In this document: positions 32,788-54,598 of the stretch, in pieces
Position numbering within the stretch: position 1 is the first letter of the stretch
How the letters are laid out: the number at the start of each line of letters is the position of its first letter
NCBI GenBank assembly: GCA_002282015.1
Contig: NCIJ01000002.1
Coordinates: forward strand, 124,001-188,000
Direction of reading: 5' to 3'
DNA from: Sulfuricurvum sp. 17-40-25
GTDB lineage: Bacteria > Campylobacterota > Campylobacteria > Campylobacterales > Sulfurimonadaceae
Length of the DNA: 64,000 nt
Notes under the pieces: model-generated
Databases searched by the model: none
The model's input: only the letters and a program-made list of their open reading frames with translations
Told to the model about the DNA's origin: nothing
Position numbers and translations under genes: made by a program

Positions 32788-34305
32788 GTGACTTTCGACA
32801 ATCAATACATTCAGCAACGTATTCAAAAAGCCAATCAATTACGTGATATGGGCATTGATCCTTATGCAAATAATTCAAATCGCAACACAACCATAGAGAA
32901 ATACCATAACGTAAATTCTGATCTTGCACAAAAAGACGAAAAACGTGATGAAAATCGACATTACACTGTTGCTGGAAGAATCAAACTTTTTCGTATTATG
33001 GGAAAAGCAAGTTTCGTAAAAATTGAAGATGAAAGTGGAATGTTGCAAATTTACGTTGCACGAGACAATCTTCCTGAAGATTTTTACAATGATGTTTTTA
33101 AAAAGCTAATTGAAGTTGGGGATATCATCGAAGTAACTGGATATCCTTTTGTTACACAGCAAGGTGAACTTTCTTTGCATGTTCATGAGTTAACCCTTTT
33201 AACCAAAGCTATTTCACCATTACCTGAGAAGTTTCACGGTCTCCAAGACAAAGAGATGAGATACCGTCAACGTTACCTTGATCTTATTATGAATTCAGAA
33301 GTGCGTAAAACATTTCATATTCGCAGTAAAGTAGTAAGCCTGACTCGTCGTTTTTTTGAAGACAAAGGCTTTTTAGAAGTAGAAACACCGATGATGCACC
33401 CAATCGCAGGTGGGGCAAATGCAAAACCGTTTATGACACACCATAATGCTCTTGGAGTGGATCGCTTTTTACGTATTGCACCTGAACTCTATCTCAAACG
33501 GTTGATCGTTGGCGGATTTGAAGCTGTTTTTGAAATCAATAGAAACTTTCGTAACGAAGGGATGGATGCTACGCATAATCCTGAATTTACATCTATCGAA
33601 TTTTATTGGGCATTTAAAACCTATAAAGATTTGATTACATTGACCAAAGAATATTTTGATTATCTTTTTGATCATCTTAACCTACCGAAACGTCTTCCGT
33701 ACGGTGAATTTGAGATTGACTTTGATCAATTCACTGAAATTGAACTCATCAAAAGTTTGAGTGAAATTGGTGGTGTCCCTGAACATGTTGTTAATGACAA
33801 GCAAGCAATATTGGATTATCTAAAGTCGCATAATCTTGAAGTCAAACCTGCTATGAACCTGGGACAGCTTCAGGGAGAATTGTTTGATGAATTCGTTGAA
33901 GCAAAGTTAATCAATCCAACGTTTATCACCCACTATCCCGTAGAGATTTCGCCATTGGCACGTCGTAATGATGCACGTCCAGAGTTGACGGACCGTTTTG
34001 AGCTCTTTATCGCAGGACGTGAAATTGCAAATGCATTCAGTGAACTTAATGATCCGATAGATCAACTCGAACGTTTTGAGGGACAAATGGCAGCAAAAAC
34101 AAGCGGTGACGATGAAGCACACGATATGGACGAAGACTTTGTTACTGCATTATCATACGGTATGGCACCAACTGCCGGCCAAGGTATTGGTATTGACCGT
34201 CTGGTTATGATGCTTACGAATCAACATTCTATTCGGGACGTATTGCTGTTCCCTGCAATGAAACCGATACAACACAACCACTTAAACAACGGAGAAGAAG
34301 AATGA
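32788..34305 (+). CDS. lysS: Lysyl-tRNA synthetase (class II)
   Basis: This is a 505-residue class II synthetase that charges tRNA-Lys. The N-terminal OB-fold anticodon-binding domain contains [20 protein letters not shown]. The catalytic core follows, with motif 1 at [20 protein letters not shown], motif 2 at [20 protein letters not shown] and motif 3 near [11 protein letters not shown]. It starts at GTG with AAAGG upstream and overlaps glyA by four bases (ATGA). The length is normal. It is the third gene of the fur operon. Confidence 0.97.
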
Positions 34306-47434: not shown

Positions 47435-49096
47435 ATGCACAACGAATCGTCTATCTGGCTTTTTTTACGAAAAATGAGGGCCCCCCTCATCGTTCTAAAC
47501 CTTGCACACGCAATCCCAGTCTTTTTACTTACATTGGTACCCGGTATTGATGCAAATGGGAACTCCGTTCATCTCTCTATTTTTGATGCAATGTACATTG
47601 TCGGTTACACAGCAACAACGATTGGGTTTGGTGAGATACCGTATGCTTTTAGTTATCCCCAACGTATTATTATATTATTTACAATTTATACAGCTGTTCC
47701 GGCATGGTTTTATGCTCTAGGTACCTTGGTTAGACTGTTTCAGGACAAAGTCTATATTGATGCCATAAAAATGAACTCTTTTCGACGTAAAGTTCGCCAC
47801 CTTAACCAAGACTTTATCATCATTTGCGGTTATACTGATTCGGCAAAGCTTCTTATTGACAAGCTCACTGAGGACAATCTGTATCGCTTAATCGTAATAG
47901 ATAAAAACAGTGACAAAATCGAAGCTTTACAAAGTGAGCTGTATATGCCATCTATTGCTGCTATTGCTGCAGATGCATCGATGACCGATGTCCTAAAATC
48001 ATCGGGTATACAATCTTCTAGCTGTAAGTTTTTGGTCACCTTATTTGATGATGATCAATTGAATCTGAAAATTGCTGTACGTGCTCGTATACTTAATGAA
48101 GAAATTAAGATCATTGCCCGATCCGGCATAAAGCATGGAGGAGAGAATCTTACTAATATCGGTGTAGATCACGTCATCGATATATTCTCCATAATTGCAC
48201 GACGTATTGATTTTGCACTCAAATCACCGTATCTTTTTAACCTTCTCAATTGGATACAAGGGGGGAATCTGCATGTCAGTAAAACGGATATTTTACCGAC
48301 TGGTAAATACATTGTTTGCAGCCGTGGTCGTTTTGGGAATACGGTACAAAATACATTAGATAGAAATAATATCGAATACACTTATCTTGATATTAACAAA
48401 CAGCTACATGAAAAAGTTTCTTCAGATCAAGATTTCTTTTTTCAAGCCGGTATATTAGAAGCCTCATGCATAATAGCGGGAACCAATGATGATGCTATCA
48501 ATCTATCTATTGTTGCTACGGCTAGAGCCATCAACCCCAATATTTTTGTTATCGTACGAGAAAACGAGCTCGAAGAACGCAGCCTTTTTTCACATTTACG
48601 CGTTGATAAGATCTTTATTTTGGATCAAATCGCTGCATTGGATGGGTACAACTATATTGATCGTCCAATGACATTGAAATTTATTGATGGTATCTCAAAC
48701 TTTAATAAGGAACAATGGGCTGAAACCCTTTTACGTATTACCAATAGAATTAACAAACGTCCAAAACTTTTGCAGATGACAATAGACTATCACCATATGT
48801 ACGCACTGGCACATTGTATTGAATCCTGTCCTGTCACTATTGGAAATATTTTGAATAACCCGTATAAAGATGGTCATGATCTCAAACTACTCATATTAGG
48901 AATTCAACGTGCTAATGGAGATTTTATCCTCTTACCGGATGATAATACGCATTTTGCACTCAACGATCGTGTATTATTAGCCACGACTGCTGCCAGTTAC
49001 AAAAAATTCGAAACCATCATCAACCATTACTATGAACTTTATTATGTCATTAATGGAGTGGAAGCGCGACGTTTTAAAATACCCTGGTTTAATTAA
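47435..49096 (+). CDS. Two-helix potassium channel with two RCK domains
   Basis: This is a 553-residue channel with two membrane helices (about 16-36 and 74-98) and a pore loop between them. The selectivity filter reads TTIGFGE at 61-67, a GFG variant rather than the common TVGYGD. Two RCK/TrkA-N-type regulatory domains follow, starting at DFIIICGYTDSAKLLIDKL (about 117) and KYIVCSRGRFGNTVQN (about 288), and a TrkA-C-like region at the end. The first nucleotide loop departs from GxGxxG. It likely moves potassium under ligand control, but ion selectivity is unproven. It follows a small membrane protein and overlaps recR tail to tail by four bases. Confidence 0.87.
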   Translation: MHNESSIWLFLRKMRAPLIVLNLAHAIPVFLLTLVPGIDANGNSVHLSIFDAMYIVGYTATTIGFGEIPYAFSYPQRIIILFTIYTAVPAWFYALGTLVRLFQDKVYIDAIKMNSFRRKVRHLNQDFIIICGYTDSAKLLIDKLTEDNLYRLIVIDKNSDKIEALQSELYMPSIAAIAADASMTDVLKSSGIQSSSCKFLVTLFDDDQLNLKIAVRARILNEEIKIIARSGIKHGGENLTNIGVDHVIDIFSIIARRIDFALKSPYLFNLLNWIQGGNLHVSKTDILPTGKYIVCSRGRFGNTVQNTLDRNNIEYTYLDINKQLHEKVSSDQDFFFQAGILEASCIIAGTNDDAINLSIVATARAINPNIFVIVRENELEERSLFSHLRVDKIFILDQIAALDGYNYIDRPMTLKFIDGISNFNKEQWAETLLRITNRINKRPKLLQMTIDYHHMYALAHCIESCPVTIGNILNNPYKDGHDLKLLILGIQRANGDFILLPDDNTHFALNDRVLLATTAASYKKFETIINHYYELYYVINGVEARRFKIPWFN

Positions 49097-49781: not shown

Positions 49782-50900
49782 ATGGACGAATTAAGTTACT
49801 ATGAAATTCTCGAAGTTACAAAAAGTGCTAATGGCGATGAAATTAAAAAAGCTTACCGAAAAATGGCAAAGCTGCATCACCCTGACCGTAATCCTGACAA
49901 TCCAGATGCAGAACACAAATTCAAACTCTGTAATGAAGCGTACCAGGTCCTAAGCGATGACCAACAACGCTCAATCTATGATCGATATGGCAAAGAGGGA
50001 CTACAACAAGGCGGCGGTGCTTCTCGTGGCCGTGGTGGCTTTGATGATTTAGGCAGTATCTTCGAAGAGATGTTTAATGGATTTGGTGGAGGCGGACGTC
50101 GTCAATCACGAGAGCCCACAGATAAATTCCCACTCGATATGGGTGTAGAAATGAAAATAAGCTTCAAAGAAGCGGTTTTTGGATGCGAAAAAGAAGTAAC
50201 TTTTAACAGTAAAAAATCATGCAAAACCTGTAAAGGAACCGGTGCCAAAGACGGTAAAGTAACTTCATGTAATCAATGTGGAGGAAAAGGACAAGTTTAT
50301 GTCCGACAGGGCTTTATGACCTTTTCACAAACATGTCCTGCTTGTCATGGCGAGGGAACGATGGCTACGGCTAAATGTTCTGACTGTAAAGGTAAAAGCT
50401 ACACAGAGTCTAAAGAGAGTGTTACCGTCAAAGTACCCGCCGGTATCGATACAGGTAACCGTCTAAGAGTATCAGGACGGGGTAATACGGGTAAAAGCGG
50501 TGTAGCAGGTGATTTATATGTTACTTTTGAAGTCGAAGAAGACAGCCACTTTATCCGTAACGGCAATGACATCTATTTGCAAGTCCCTGTCTTTTTTACC
50601 CAAGCTGTCTTGGGAGAAAATATTACGATCCCTTCACTCACAGGGGACCTGCTATTAGAGCTTGAACGAGGAACCAAAGACAAACAGCAATACCGTTTTA
50701 GAAATGAAGGGGTAGCCGATGTTCATGGTCATGGAAAAGGGGATTTGATCGCTCAGGTTACCCTTACCTACCCTACAAAACTCACCAGTGAGCAAGAAGA
50801 CCTGTTGCAAAAACTGCAAGCGAGCTTCGGGATAGAGTCAAAGCCTCATGAGAGTCTATTTGAATCAACATTTGATAAAGTCAAAGGGTGGTTCAAGTAA
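49782..50900 (+). CDS. dnaJ: Chaperone protein DnaJ
   Basis: This is a 372-residue type I Hsp40. The J-domain (about 4-70) has HPD at 33-35. The Gly-rich linker reaches about residue 115. Four CxxCxGxG repeats form the zinc domain ([32 protein letters not shown]), the last ending KS instead of GxG. Two C-terminal substrate-binding domains follow. The start is ATG 49782 after GGAG; the frame's earlier ATG at 49770 is less likely. A TATAAT box lies near 49740. It partners with DnaK and GrpE, which are not in this window. It overlaps the hemerythrin gene by eight bases at the 3' end. Confidence 0.95.
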
Positions 50901-51342
50901 CCGCTTCACCCTTTGAACCTTCCGTTTCCATTTTACGCGCCAGATAATCGGCTGTTGGTGCATCTACCGAATTGACATGCAGTACAATCCACTCAGGTGT
51001 TTTGTACACAAAATTTATAATTTTTTTAATATCTCCGAACTTTTTCCATTGTCTGACTGCGGATTCAAGATCCAATAAAAACATATCATGAGCTGTTTTA
51101 TGCATATCATACGATGGAAAATCATACTCATGCATCAATCGCTCTTCGTTTGCAAAATGCTTTTGTACATGATCTATATATTCATCAAGCTTTTTTTCCA
51201 GTTCACTCAATTCTACTGTTTTTCGATCAACACCAAATGCAAGCTTCTCGATTTGATTTAGAATCTTTATCTCATTTTCGTGTGTCTCCTGCATCTGCTC
51301 AACACTCATCTCTTCAACTTGTTCAACGTAAATCAATGCCAT
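50893..51342 (-). CDS. Bacteriohemerythrin
   Basis: This is a 149-residue single-domain hemerythrin. All seven di-iron ligands can be placed: His21, His62 and Glu66 (HFANEERLM), His81 and His85 (HKTAH), His122 and Asp127 (HVNSVD). It should bind oxygen reversibly and may deliver, buffer or sense it in the cytoplasm. The N-terminal [20 protein letters not shown] stretch is usual for the bacterial family. AAAAGGAGC precedes the ATG. Its promoter contains an exact FNR/CRP-family site centred 41.5 bases before the predicted start, so control by oxygen is likely. It overlaps dnaJ tail to tail by eight bases. Confidence 0.93.
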
Positions 51343-51380
51343 AAAAGCTCCTTTTTTATCTAACAGTTCTTAACCAACGA

Positions 51381-51422
51381 AGTATAATTTGTTTATTGTA
51401 TCAATTTATTGATCTAAATCAA
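51381..51422 (-). promoter_or_regulatory. FNR/CRP-type promoter of hemerythrin
   Basis: On the minus strand TTGATTTAGATCAA (51422-51409) is an exact match to the FNR half-site pattern TTGAT-N4-ATCAA. A -10 box TATACT lies at 51386-51381, implying a start near 51374. The box centre then falls at -41.5, the class II activator position. A ribosome site and the ATG at 51342 follow. Which FNR/CRP family protein binds cannot be told. Confidence 0.7.
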
Positions 51423-51487: not shown

Positions 51488-54400
51488 TTACTTCGTAGAG
51501 CGTTTTGGATACGCCATAGCGATTACAATCGCGATCACAGCATACGTCCATGGAACGAAATCAGGAATCGGAACCGGATCGCCCTTGGCATACGAGTGCA
51601 TTCCGGCAAGGTAATAGTTTACTCCAAAGTACGTCATCAGTACCGACGTAAATGCTAAGAGAGAGATCACGCTGAAATTATAATCATTGTATACACCCTT
51701 GATCATACGTAGGTGGATCACAACAGCATAGACCAAAATGGTTACCAGTGCCCATGTCTCTTTTGGATCCCATCCCCAGTAACGTCCCCAGCTCTCATTG
51801 GCCCATACACCACCCAAGAAGTTACCTACGGTCAAAAGGATCAAACCTATCATCAAACTCATCTCGTTGATACCATTGAGTTCTTTGATCGCGAAATTAA
51901 GACGTTTTTCATTATTAGTATTTTTGAGAACAAAAAGAATAAGCGTAATCATCCCTAATAACGCCCCAAGACCCAAAAAGCCATAACTGGCCGTAATCAT
52001 AGATACATGAATACTCAACCAATAAGACTGTAATACAGGAACAAGATTAGTAACCTGGGGATCAAGCCAGTTTAGATGTGCCACAAACAAAATAATACCG
52101 GACATAATACCTGTAGCCGCAAGAGTAATCGCAGATTTACGTGAGAAAATAAATCCTGCTAATACAGTAGCCCAAGCGATATAAACCATAGACTCATATC
52201 CGTTTGACCATGGTGCGTGTCCAGAAATGTACCAACGCATGATCAACCCTGTCGTATGAGCAATGAAAAAGAGGACCAACAGACCGAAACTGATTTTACT
52301 GACCGTTTCCAATTTAAACGTAGGTTTTAATATTTTCAAAAATGAAAGAAGCAGCAGAGAAAAACCTAGTAAAAAATACAAAGGCCATAGTTGCTCAAAA
52401 ATATTCCACTTGTTGTAGGCATGTTCTACGTTTAGTTTGGTCTCACTAGGATACACACTTGCACCTGCAAAATGCTGGTACTTATCAATCAAGGTAAGTG
52501 CTTTGTCCGCATCAGACCAATCACCGCTTTTGAGTGCGCCATCAACAGCACCAAAATACCCCATAGCCATCAAACGAACCATTTGACCATCTTTTGGATC
52601 TAATGTCTGCAGTGCTTCGATTGTTGCATACCATTTGTTGTTTTGATCATTTGGTTTTGGCCATATTTGGATTAATGCACCGGTGTATACCATAAATGCG
52701 ACATTGACACGTTCATCTATTTGCAATAGTGCTTTATCAAACTTATCCCGTTTTCCCGGAGCTTTACGTGTAGCCTCATCAACAAGAGATGCTAATTTAT
52801 AACCCGAAATTTGATCTGGCACTTCAAAAAACTGCGAGAAAGCGGCCATTTTTGCATCTTCATCAAGACCAATACGTTTATTGATCTCTTTATCCCCGGT
52901 TTTGATTATGGCAATCTCACGCCATGCATCAGGTCGAAGCATCATTCCCATAACTACTTGATTAGCATTTAACCCTAAGAATGACGTACTACGGTTGAGT
53001 TTTGACAAAATTTCATGAGAAAGCGTATCAAGAGGTTTCATACGTCCAGCGGAATCTTGCACAACCAAATGGCCGAATTTATCCGCATGTACTGCATCAA
53101 AACTCTTGGCTGTTTTAATAACCGGATTTTCACTGTCTACCGCATGCAGCCCTGTAGTATTAAACGCTAGAATCATAATAGCCAAAGACGCGGCTAATTT
53201 TTTTGCATTCAAAGATTTTAGTTTCTCACTAAGTCCCCTGAATCGACCGTTCTTCACAATCAACACACCAAATAATCCAATCGCCAATAATAAATATCCG
53301 ATATACGTCACCAAAGTACCCGGATCACGATTCACCGATAAAACCGTGCCCATCTCATCTTGATCAAACGATGACTGGAAGAAACGGTACTGTTTATAGT
53401 CAAGAATATGATTCATGTAAATACGGTAAGGCATTTTGACTCCATTTGCTTGATCGATAAGGGTAACTTCACTCGCATAGGATGCAGGAGACATAGAACC
53501 AGGATAACGCTCAAGCTGAAAATCATTAAGCTGTATCGAAAATGGCAATGAACGCTCAATAGAGCCATAGGCCACATCAACAGTAATATTTCCTAATGTA
53601 GCCGTTTTAGCTTCTCCCATATCGCCCGGTGTCCCTAAAACAATTACAGTATCTTTTTTATCGGCACTGGAAAGCTCAAGCGTTAATGCATCAGCACCTT
53701 TCATCATAGGCCCTTTTGCAGGCTTTGAAACAAGTTTCATAATGCCTTGAGGTATGAATGAACGTAGTACAAATCCGCCTAGTGGTGTTTGGAACAAGGT
53801 TCGTACTGCTAGTTCACTCTTTCCAGACTCCAGTGAACCTGTTTGTTGCGTGTTCATACTAAGCGTATTGAGTTTCATGTCATGATTCATCATGACTTTA
53901 TCTCCTTCAATACTTAGGGAAATAACTGGCTTTTCAAAGGTTTGGCCTGATTCAAAATCAAGTACAACATCATCTGCTTCAAAAGAATCACCTTTTTTTA
54001 AAATGACCTGTTCTCCTGCGCCTCCTGATGTTACCATCATGTTGAGAATCGCATCACCTTTTGGGTCAGCAACTGCTTCAAAACTTGCATCTCCCATATA
54101 TCCATCTAGTTTAACCTTGACTTCTTTTCCCTGAAATTCCAAAGTACGCTCAAATGTATTTGATAAACGTTTTGAAAGAAACAATGGCTCTTGAAACGTG
54201 TAAGATTTTCCTTCATCATGTACATTAAAAGTCACATAAGGCTCATTACTGACAATAACATTGTTGCTCTCACCCTCACGAATGTGCATGACACCCTCAT
54301 AACCAAAATAACGGGTTACTCCAGCACCAATCAATATAATCAAAAATGAAACGTGAAAGGTAAATACTAATATTTTTTCTTTTCGTGCCATTTTGAATTT

Positions 54401-54598
54401 AAGAATATTAAGCAATAAATTAAGTGCAAGAAATCCTAATAGTATTTCAAACCATCGGGCATTGTATATATCTGCTTTTGCAGTCATCGTGCCATAGTCA
54501 TTTTCTACAAATGTGGCATAGCCAACGGTAATGGCAAACACAAGCATGAGGGCCACCATGGTCTTCATGGAACTTAAAATAGCGTGAATTTTATTCAT
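51488..54598 (-). CDS. Fused CcsBA cytochrome c maturation protein
   Basis: This is a 1036-residue fusion of ResB/CcsB and ResC/CcsA for system II cytochrome c assembly. It exports heme and ligates it to apocytochromes outside the inner membrane. The N-terminal ResB part has early helices (FAITVGYATFVENDYGTM) and a large periplasmic domain (about 90-440). A central periplasmic stretch contains DSAGRMKPLDTLSHEIL. The C-terminal ResC part has a series of helices with the heme-handling WWD motif GRYWGWDPKETWALVTIL near residue 960. Conserved histidines occur in HTTGLIMRWYISGHAPW and later helices. Single-chain CcsBA is characteristic of Campylobacterota. It is the last gene of the minus-strand block. 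Confidence 0.95.
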   Translation of the reverse strand: MNKIHAILSSMKTMVALMLVFAITVGYATFVENDYGTMTAKADIYNARWFEILLGFLALNLLLNILKFKMARKEKILVFTFHVSFLIILIGAGVTRYFGYEGVMHIREGESNNVIVSNEPYVTFNVHDEGKSYTFQEPLFLSKRLSNTFERTLEFQGKEVKVKLDGYMGDASFEAVADPKGDAILNMMVTSGGAGEQVILKKGDSFEADDVVLDFESGQTFEKPVISLSIEGDKVMMNHDMKLNTLSMNTQQTGSLESGKSELAVRTLFQTPLGGFVLRSFIPQGIMKLVSKPAKGPMMKGADALTLELSSADKKDTVIVLGTPGDMGEAKTATLGNITVDVAYGSIERSLPFSIQLNDFQLERYPGSMSPASYASEVTLIDQANGVKMPYRIYMNHILDYKQYRFFQSSFDQDEMGTVLSVNRDPGTLVTYIGYLLLAIGLFGVLIVKNGRFRGLSEKLKSLNAKKLAASLAIMILAFNTTGLHAVDSENPVIKTAKSFDAVHADKFGHLVVQDSAGRMKPLDTLSHEILSKLNRSTSFLGLNANQVVMGMMLRPDAWREIAIIKTGDKEINKRIGLDEDAKMAAFSQFFEVPDQISGYKLASLVDEATRKAPGKRDKFDKALLQIDERVNVAFMVYTGALIQIWPKPNDQNNKWYATIEALQTLDPKDGQMVRLMAMGYFGAVDGALKSGDWSDADKALTLIDKYQHFAGASVYPSETKLNVEHAYNKWNIFEQLWPLYFLLGFSLLLLSFLKILKPTFKLETVSKISFGLLVLFFIAHTTGLIMRWYISGHAPWSNGYESMVYIAWATVLAGFIFSRKSAITLAATGIMSGIILFVAHLNWLDPQVTNLVPVLQSYWLSIHVSMITASYGFLGLGALLGMITLILFVLKNTNNEKRLNFAIKELNGINEMSLMIGLILLTVGNFLGGVWANESWGRYWGWDPKETWALVTILVYAVVIHLRMIKGVYNDYNFSVISLLAFTSVLMTYFGVNYYLAGMHSYAKGDPVPIPDFVPWTYAVIAIVIAMAYPKRSTK

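Follow-up and report, generated by a model that had tools for sequence, protein, structure and literature searches.

Predicted Crp/Fnr-family class II operator at the hemerythrin promoter of Sulfuricurvum sp. 17-40-25 and its candidate nitrate- or nitric-oxide-linked regulator

Background

Which regulator, and which signal, switches on the hemerythrin gene of Sulfuricurvum sp. 17-40-25? The control of respiratory genes in the Campylobacterota is poorly known. Members of the group are reported to have no orthologues of FNR (reviewed in PMC6682613), ArcA and NarP, and our search of the open-access literature turned up no paper naming a regulator for a hemerythrin of this group. The initial annotation of a 64,000-nucleotide stretch of this genome (the window; contig NCIJ01000002.1, positions 124,001 to 188,000) placed an FNR-type box upstream of the gene and suggested that low oxygen, acting through an FNR-like protein, or a related signal turns it on. 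It also held that most hemerythrin genes lack a defined regulator. This is fair as a general statement, but there are two precedents: Anr, an activator of the FNR family, drives the single-domain hemerythrin gene mhr at low oxygen in Pseudomonas aeruginosa (PMC12403760), and predicted HcpR regulons include hemerythrin-like genes (PMC1274295).

Results and discussion

The bacteriohemerythrin gene (50893..51342, minus strand) encodes a protein of 149 amino acids that passes the cut-offs of TIGR02481 and of the Pfam Hemerythrin family and misses that of the narrower family NF033749 (55.7 of 84). All canonical diiron ligands, five His, one Glu and one Asp, are kept (H21, H62, E66, H81, H85, H122 and D127), and the gene has its best named relatives in Sulfuricurvum MAGs. 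An AGGAG ribosome-binding site, read from the sequence, lies 5' of the ATG at approximately 51350..51354 (minus strand). Upstream, on the same strand, is a ccsBA-type cytochrome c biogenesis gene (51488..54598). The genome has two other hemerythrin genes: the first (C34:19-420) starts 18 bases from a contig end, so its promoter is unreadable, and the second (C34:2155-2562) has no class II site.

The spacer between ccsBA and hemerythrin holds a perfect TTGAT-N4-ATCAA palindrome at 51409..51422, which reads TTGATTTAGATCAA on the minus strand and TTGATCTAAATCAA on the plus strand and lies 73.5 nt upstream of the hemerythrin ATG. A predicted -10 hexamer, TATACT (51381..51386, minus strand), follows 22 nt from the box. 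Taking the last base of this hexamer as -7 puts the predicted transcription start at 51374 on the minus strand and the centre of the box at -41.5. Thus both the mismatch-free box and its spacing, as initially described, are confirmed. A promoter scan also returned a promoter-like antisense match on the plus strand.

Exact copies of the box are in themselves not rare. The window has a second one, at 48045 and within a coding frame, and the genome (2.3 Mb) has 26 in all, mostly in coding frames and only three of them clearly intergenic. The bare box count was therefore dropped as evidence, and a correctly spaced -10 was required as well. With a -10 at 21-23 nt, the combination occurs once in the window against 0.07 expected from shuffles, and when the 145-bp spacer itself was shuffled only a fraction of 0.0001 (1 in 10,000) held box and -10 on the coding strand. 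Chance was estimated by shuffling; a reversed-pattern control was set aside as unsuitable, because the TAG-rich reversed words are rarer. Besides the operator, the looser pattern TTGAY-N4-RTCAA has two boxes in the window, at 33716-33729 and, the exact copy already named, at 48045-48058, both chance-like and within coding frames of a lysyl-tRNA synthetase-like and a TrkA-type channel gene.

Comparison between species gives the class II assignment its weight. Among 18 close orthologues, 11 keep the box (at least 9 of 10 positions) together with the -10 at 22 nt, seven of them perfectly; after shuffling of the same 18, a mean of 0.1 and a maximum of 3 passed. The orthologue in G031 reads TTGATTTGGATCAA-22-TATACT, while the remainder of its spacer is different. 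Another visible case (L220) has TATAAC as its -10. The same promoter precedes hemerythrin genes of Sulfurimonas, Sulfurovum and related MAGs despite unrelated upstream genes, and 20 of 33 distant Campylobacterota loci pass (shuffle mean 0.15, maximum 1). In two relatives, G010 (L021) and G023 (L020), hemerythrin begins about 20 bp after ccsBA and the box is absent. The class II CRP/FNR geometry claimed at the outset is strongly backed by this comparison, and the prediction that the site is a Crp/Fnr-family class II operator is strongly supported.

At ten of the examined loci a Crp/Fnr gene with the recognition helix PETxSR or PEGLSR is divergent from hemerythrin. At L079, L083 and L084 these divergent regulators have PEGLSR for PETxSR and the boxes are altered (TTAACCATAATCAA, TTAACCTTAATCAA); helix and operator have possibly changed together there. 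Box quality is associated with the presence of any Crp/Fnr gene (p = 0.011), a value that depends on four genomes without Crp/Fnr matches, partly MAGs or single-cell assemblies; some apparent absences may be gaps, because several of the assemblies are drafts. In G352 and G354, which belong to other genera, the box is kept where only other branches of the Crp/Fnr family were found. That the same operator is kept in genera whose Crp/Fnr proteins are of other branches suggests that the trans factor changed and the cis site stayed.

The genome was also scanned with TTGAY-N4-RTCAA-N21-23-TANNNT. All nine matches are intergenic and upstream of a gene: moaA, a Rieske protein gene, napA, a PAS sensor, a CheY-like response regulator, an NnrS-like gene, a cytochrome c gene, a porin gene and hemerythrin, where all names except hemerythrin were assigned by reading the translations. 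The set is dominated by genes of nitrate respiration and genes linked to nitric oxide (nap, moaA and the NnrS-like gene).

Searches of the genome found two Crp/Fnr proteins, which we call R1 and R2, and no FNR among them. R1 (C34:60974-61600) is directly upstream of a ferritin-like gene, and no box was seen in the short gap between the two. R2 (C30:23676-24329; L048 7674-8330, minus strand) is encoded beside napA and divergent from the PAS sensor gene. Both match DNR structures only distantly, and the FNR-type N-terminal cysteine cluster is absent from both. R1 has a single cysteine (95) and R2 has five (C14, C86, C91, C106 and C138); in 20 R2 orthologues C86, C91 and C138 are invariant and C14 is present in 16. 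Judged from these sequences, the cysteine arrangement of R2 is unlike that of FNR and could be the mark of a redox or metal sensor.

Several observations connect R2 with the box-plus-promoter set. A TTGA-N6-TCAA box stands at -41.5 of nap, with R2 encoded next to it, an arrangement of the Nss type. The R2 genes themselves have the same architecture in their own promoters in 14 of 20 cases, and the 14-mer of the R2 promoter in G004 is identical to that of the window. G031, in which R1 and R2 as queries recovered R2 alone, retains the sites of hemerythrin, nap, moaA, NnrS and the porin gene; in G010, where no Crp/Fnr protein was found, the pattern has zero matches. Across 41 Sulfuricurvum genomes the median number of sites per Mb is 6.3 with an R2 orthologue and 2.4 without (Mann-Whitney p = 1e-5), although these genomes are related, so that this and the other p-values overstate independence. 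The data establish the site, its spacing, its conservation and a shared regulon pattern, as well as co-variation with Crp/Fnr genes.

The pattern in G031, the core TTAG that the hemerythrin box shares with R2-linked sites and the nap-linked gene set make R2 the best candidate. We consider it somewhat probable that the class II operator activates hemerythrin's own promoter as part of the R2 regulon, and that the gene is co-expressed with the nitrate and nitric oxide set. According to this proposal R2, which is Nss/DNR-like by gene position and box geometry, would bind 51409-51422 and act as an activator and not as a repressor. The signal, judging from kinship and gene content, would probably be nitrate or nitric oxide together with low oxygen, and hemerythrin would be made along with nap, moaA, the NnrS-like protein and the porin. 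The protein would then probably bind residual O2 or NO, protecting oxygen-labile enzymes during anaerobic respiration. Against R2, however, its recognition helix (PATLSR) carries Ala in place of the Glu of FNR and DNR, G023 has R2 and yet its hemerythrin gene lacks the box, and the trans factor is not constant, as G352 and G354 illustrate.

The alanine in the R2 helix makes R1 a serious rival, since the helix of R1 (PETLSR) is FNR-like (Glu-x-x-Ser-Arg), as expected for a protein that recognizes TTGAT. Sister proteins of R1 are encoded divergently from boxed hemerythrin genes in G325 and G189. Furthermore, a cytochrome c site, TTGAT-N4-ATCAA with a -10 (L145, L167), is common to the R1-bearing genomes G000 and G029, the second of which yielded no R2 orthologue, and the cytochrome c gene may be an R1 target. 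On the other side, R1 was not found in G031, where the hemerythrin site and promoter are perfect, and the TTAG core of the box matches the R2-linked sites. That R1 and not R2 is the activator of hemerythrin is therefore a possibility we take seriously but consider unlikely.

Much less probable is a true oxygen-sensing [4Fe-4S] FNR that switches hemerythrin on at low oxygen, although the operator matches the FNR consensus exactly, with its centre at -41.5. Anr is a [4Fe-4S] FNR orthologue. As such it lends this explanation a parallel, for it regulates the Pseudomonas hemerythrin (PMC12403760). The missing N-terminal cluster in R1 and R2 and the reported lack of an FNR orthologue in Campylobacterota (PMC6682613) argue against it; the invariant cysteines of R2 are differently placed, though a redox or Fe-S role is possible for them. 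For the same want of FNR-type cysteines, and given a gene set dominated by nitrate and nitric oxide functions, the initial choice of FNR itself, with low oxygen as the on-signal, is not supported, and its alternative wording, "a related signal", fits better. Most likely this FNR-type switch is under a regulator linked to nitrate or nitric oxide.

Repression is very improbable. A Crp/Fnr protein could act as a repressor by covering an overlapping pair, a -35-like TTGATT and the -10-like TACAAT at 51400-51395, 8 nt past the box; the promoter scan scored TTGATT-16-TACAAT inside the box region with 9/12 matches. The orthologue in G031, however, loses TACAAT and keeps TATACT at 22 nt, and the -41.5 geometry recurs at other sites. 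Least probable of all is that the palindrome arose by chance in an AT-rich spacer and that the gene is constitutive or read through from ccsBA: exact boxes are indeed common and the two relatives in which hemerythrin abuts ccsBA have none, but box and spacing are kept in unrelated contexts far above the shuffles, which refutes chance as a general account.

The preferred R2 proposal has close parallels. Within the Campylobacterota, Nss regulators are NssA/B/C of Wolinella succinogenes and NssR of Campylobacter jejuni, and Nitrosophilus labii has nap/nor-linked Crp/Fnr regulators, encoded beside nap. Nss-type boxes of the form TTGA-N6-TCAA serve in both Wolinella and Nitrosophilus, and in Nitrosophilus they start 48-49 nt upstream of the transcription start site (PMC11539149); the hemerythrin site shares this box geometry and R2 is likewise encoded beside nap, a likeness of gene position and box. 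NssR of C. jejuni differs, with a TTAAC-N4-GTTAA box and Gln181 (PMC1274295). In the literature found on the Nss regulators of Wolinella and Campylobacter or on those of Nitrosophilus, hemerythrin is not named as a target. DNR (TTGAT-N4-ATCAA) and HcpR (TTGAC-N4-GTCAA) have nitrogen-oxide genes as targets (PMC1274295). These systems and the one described here, from different phyla, are alike in the box and in the nitrogen-oxide genes and, as far as the predicted HcpR regulons go, in hemerythrin-like genes. The parallel with Anr and mhr goes less far, as R1 and R2 lack the N-terminal cysteines of Anr.

Conclusion

With Anr-mhr and the predicted HcpR regulons as precedents, the hemerythrin promoter described here joins a known kind of regulon. 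A broader picture can be offered only tentatively: the single-domain hemerythrins of Campylobacterota could have in common an ancient class II promoter of the Crp/Fnr type, the regulator of which was swapped between branches (a divergent local protein, an R1-like protein or the nap-linked R2), with hemerythrin a standing part of the control of nitrogen-oxide respiration and R2, through C86, C91 and C138, an unusual redox or nitric oxide sensor. With an operator that is conserved and predictable, and with R1 and R2 as named candidate regulators, the question can be tested directly. The results point to a role of hemerythrin in the anaerobic respiration of nitrogen oxides and not solely in aerobic oxygen storage.
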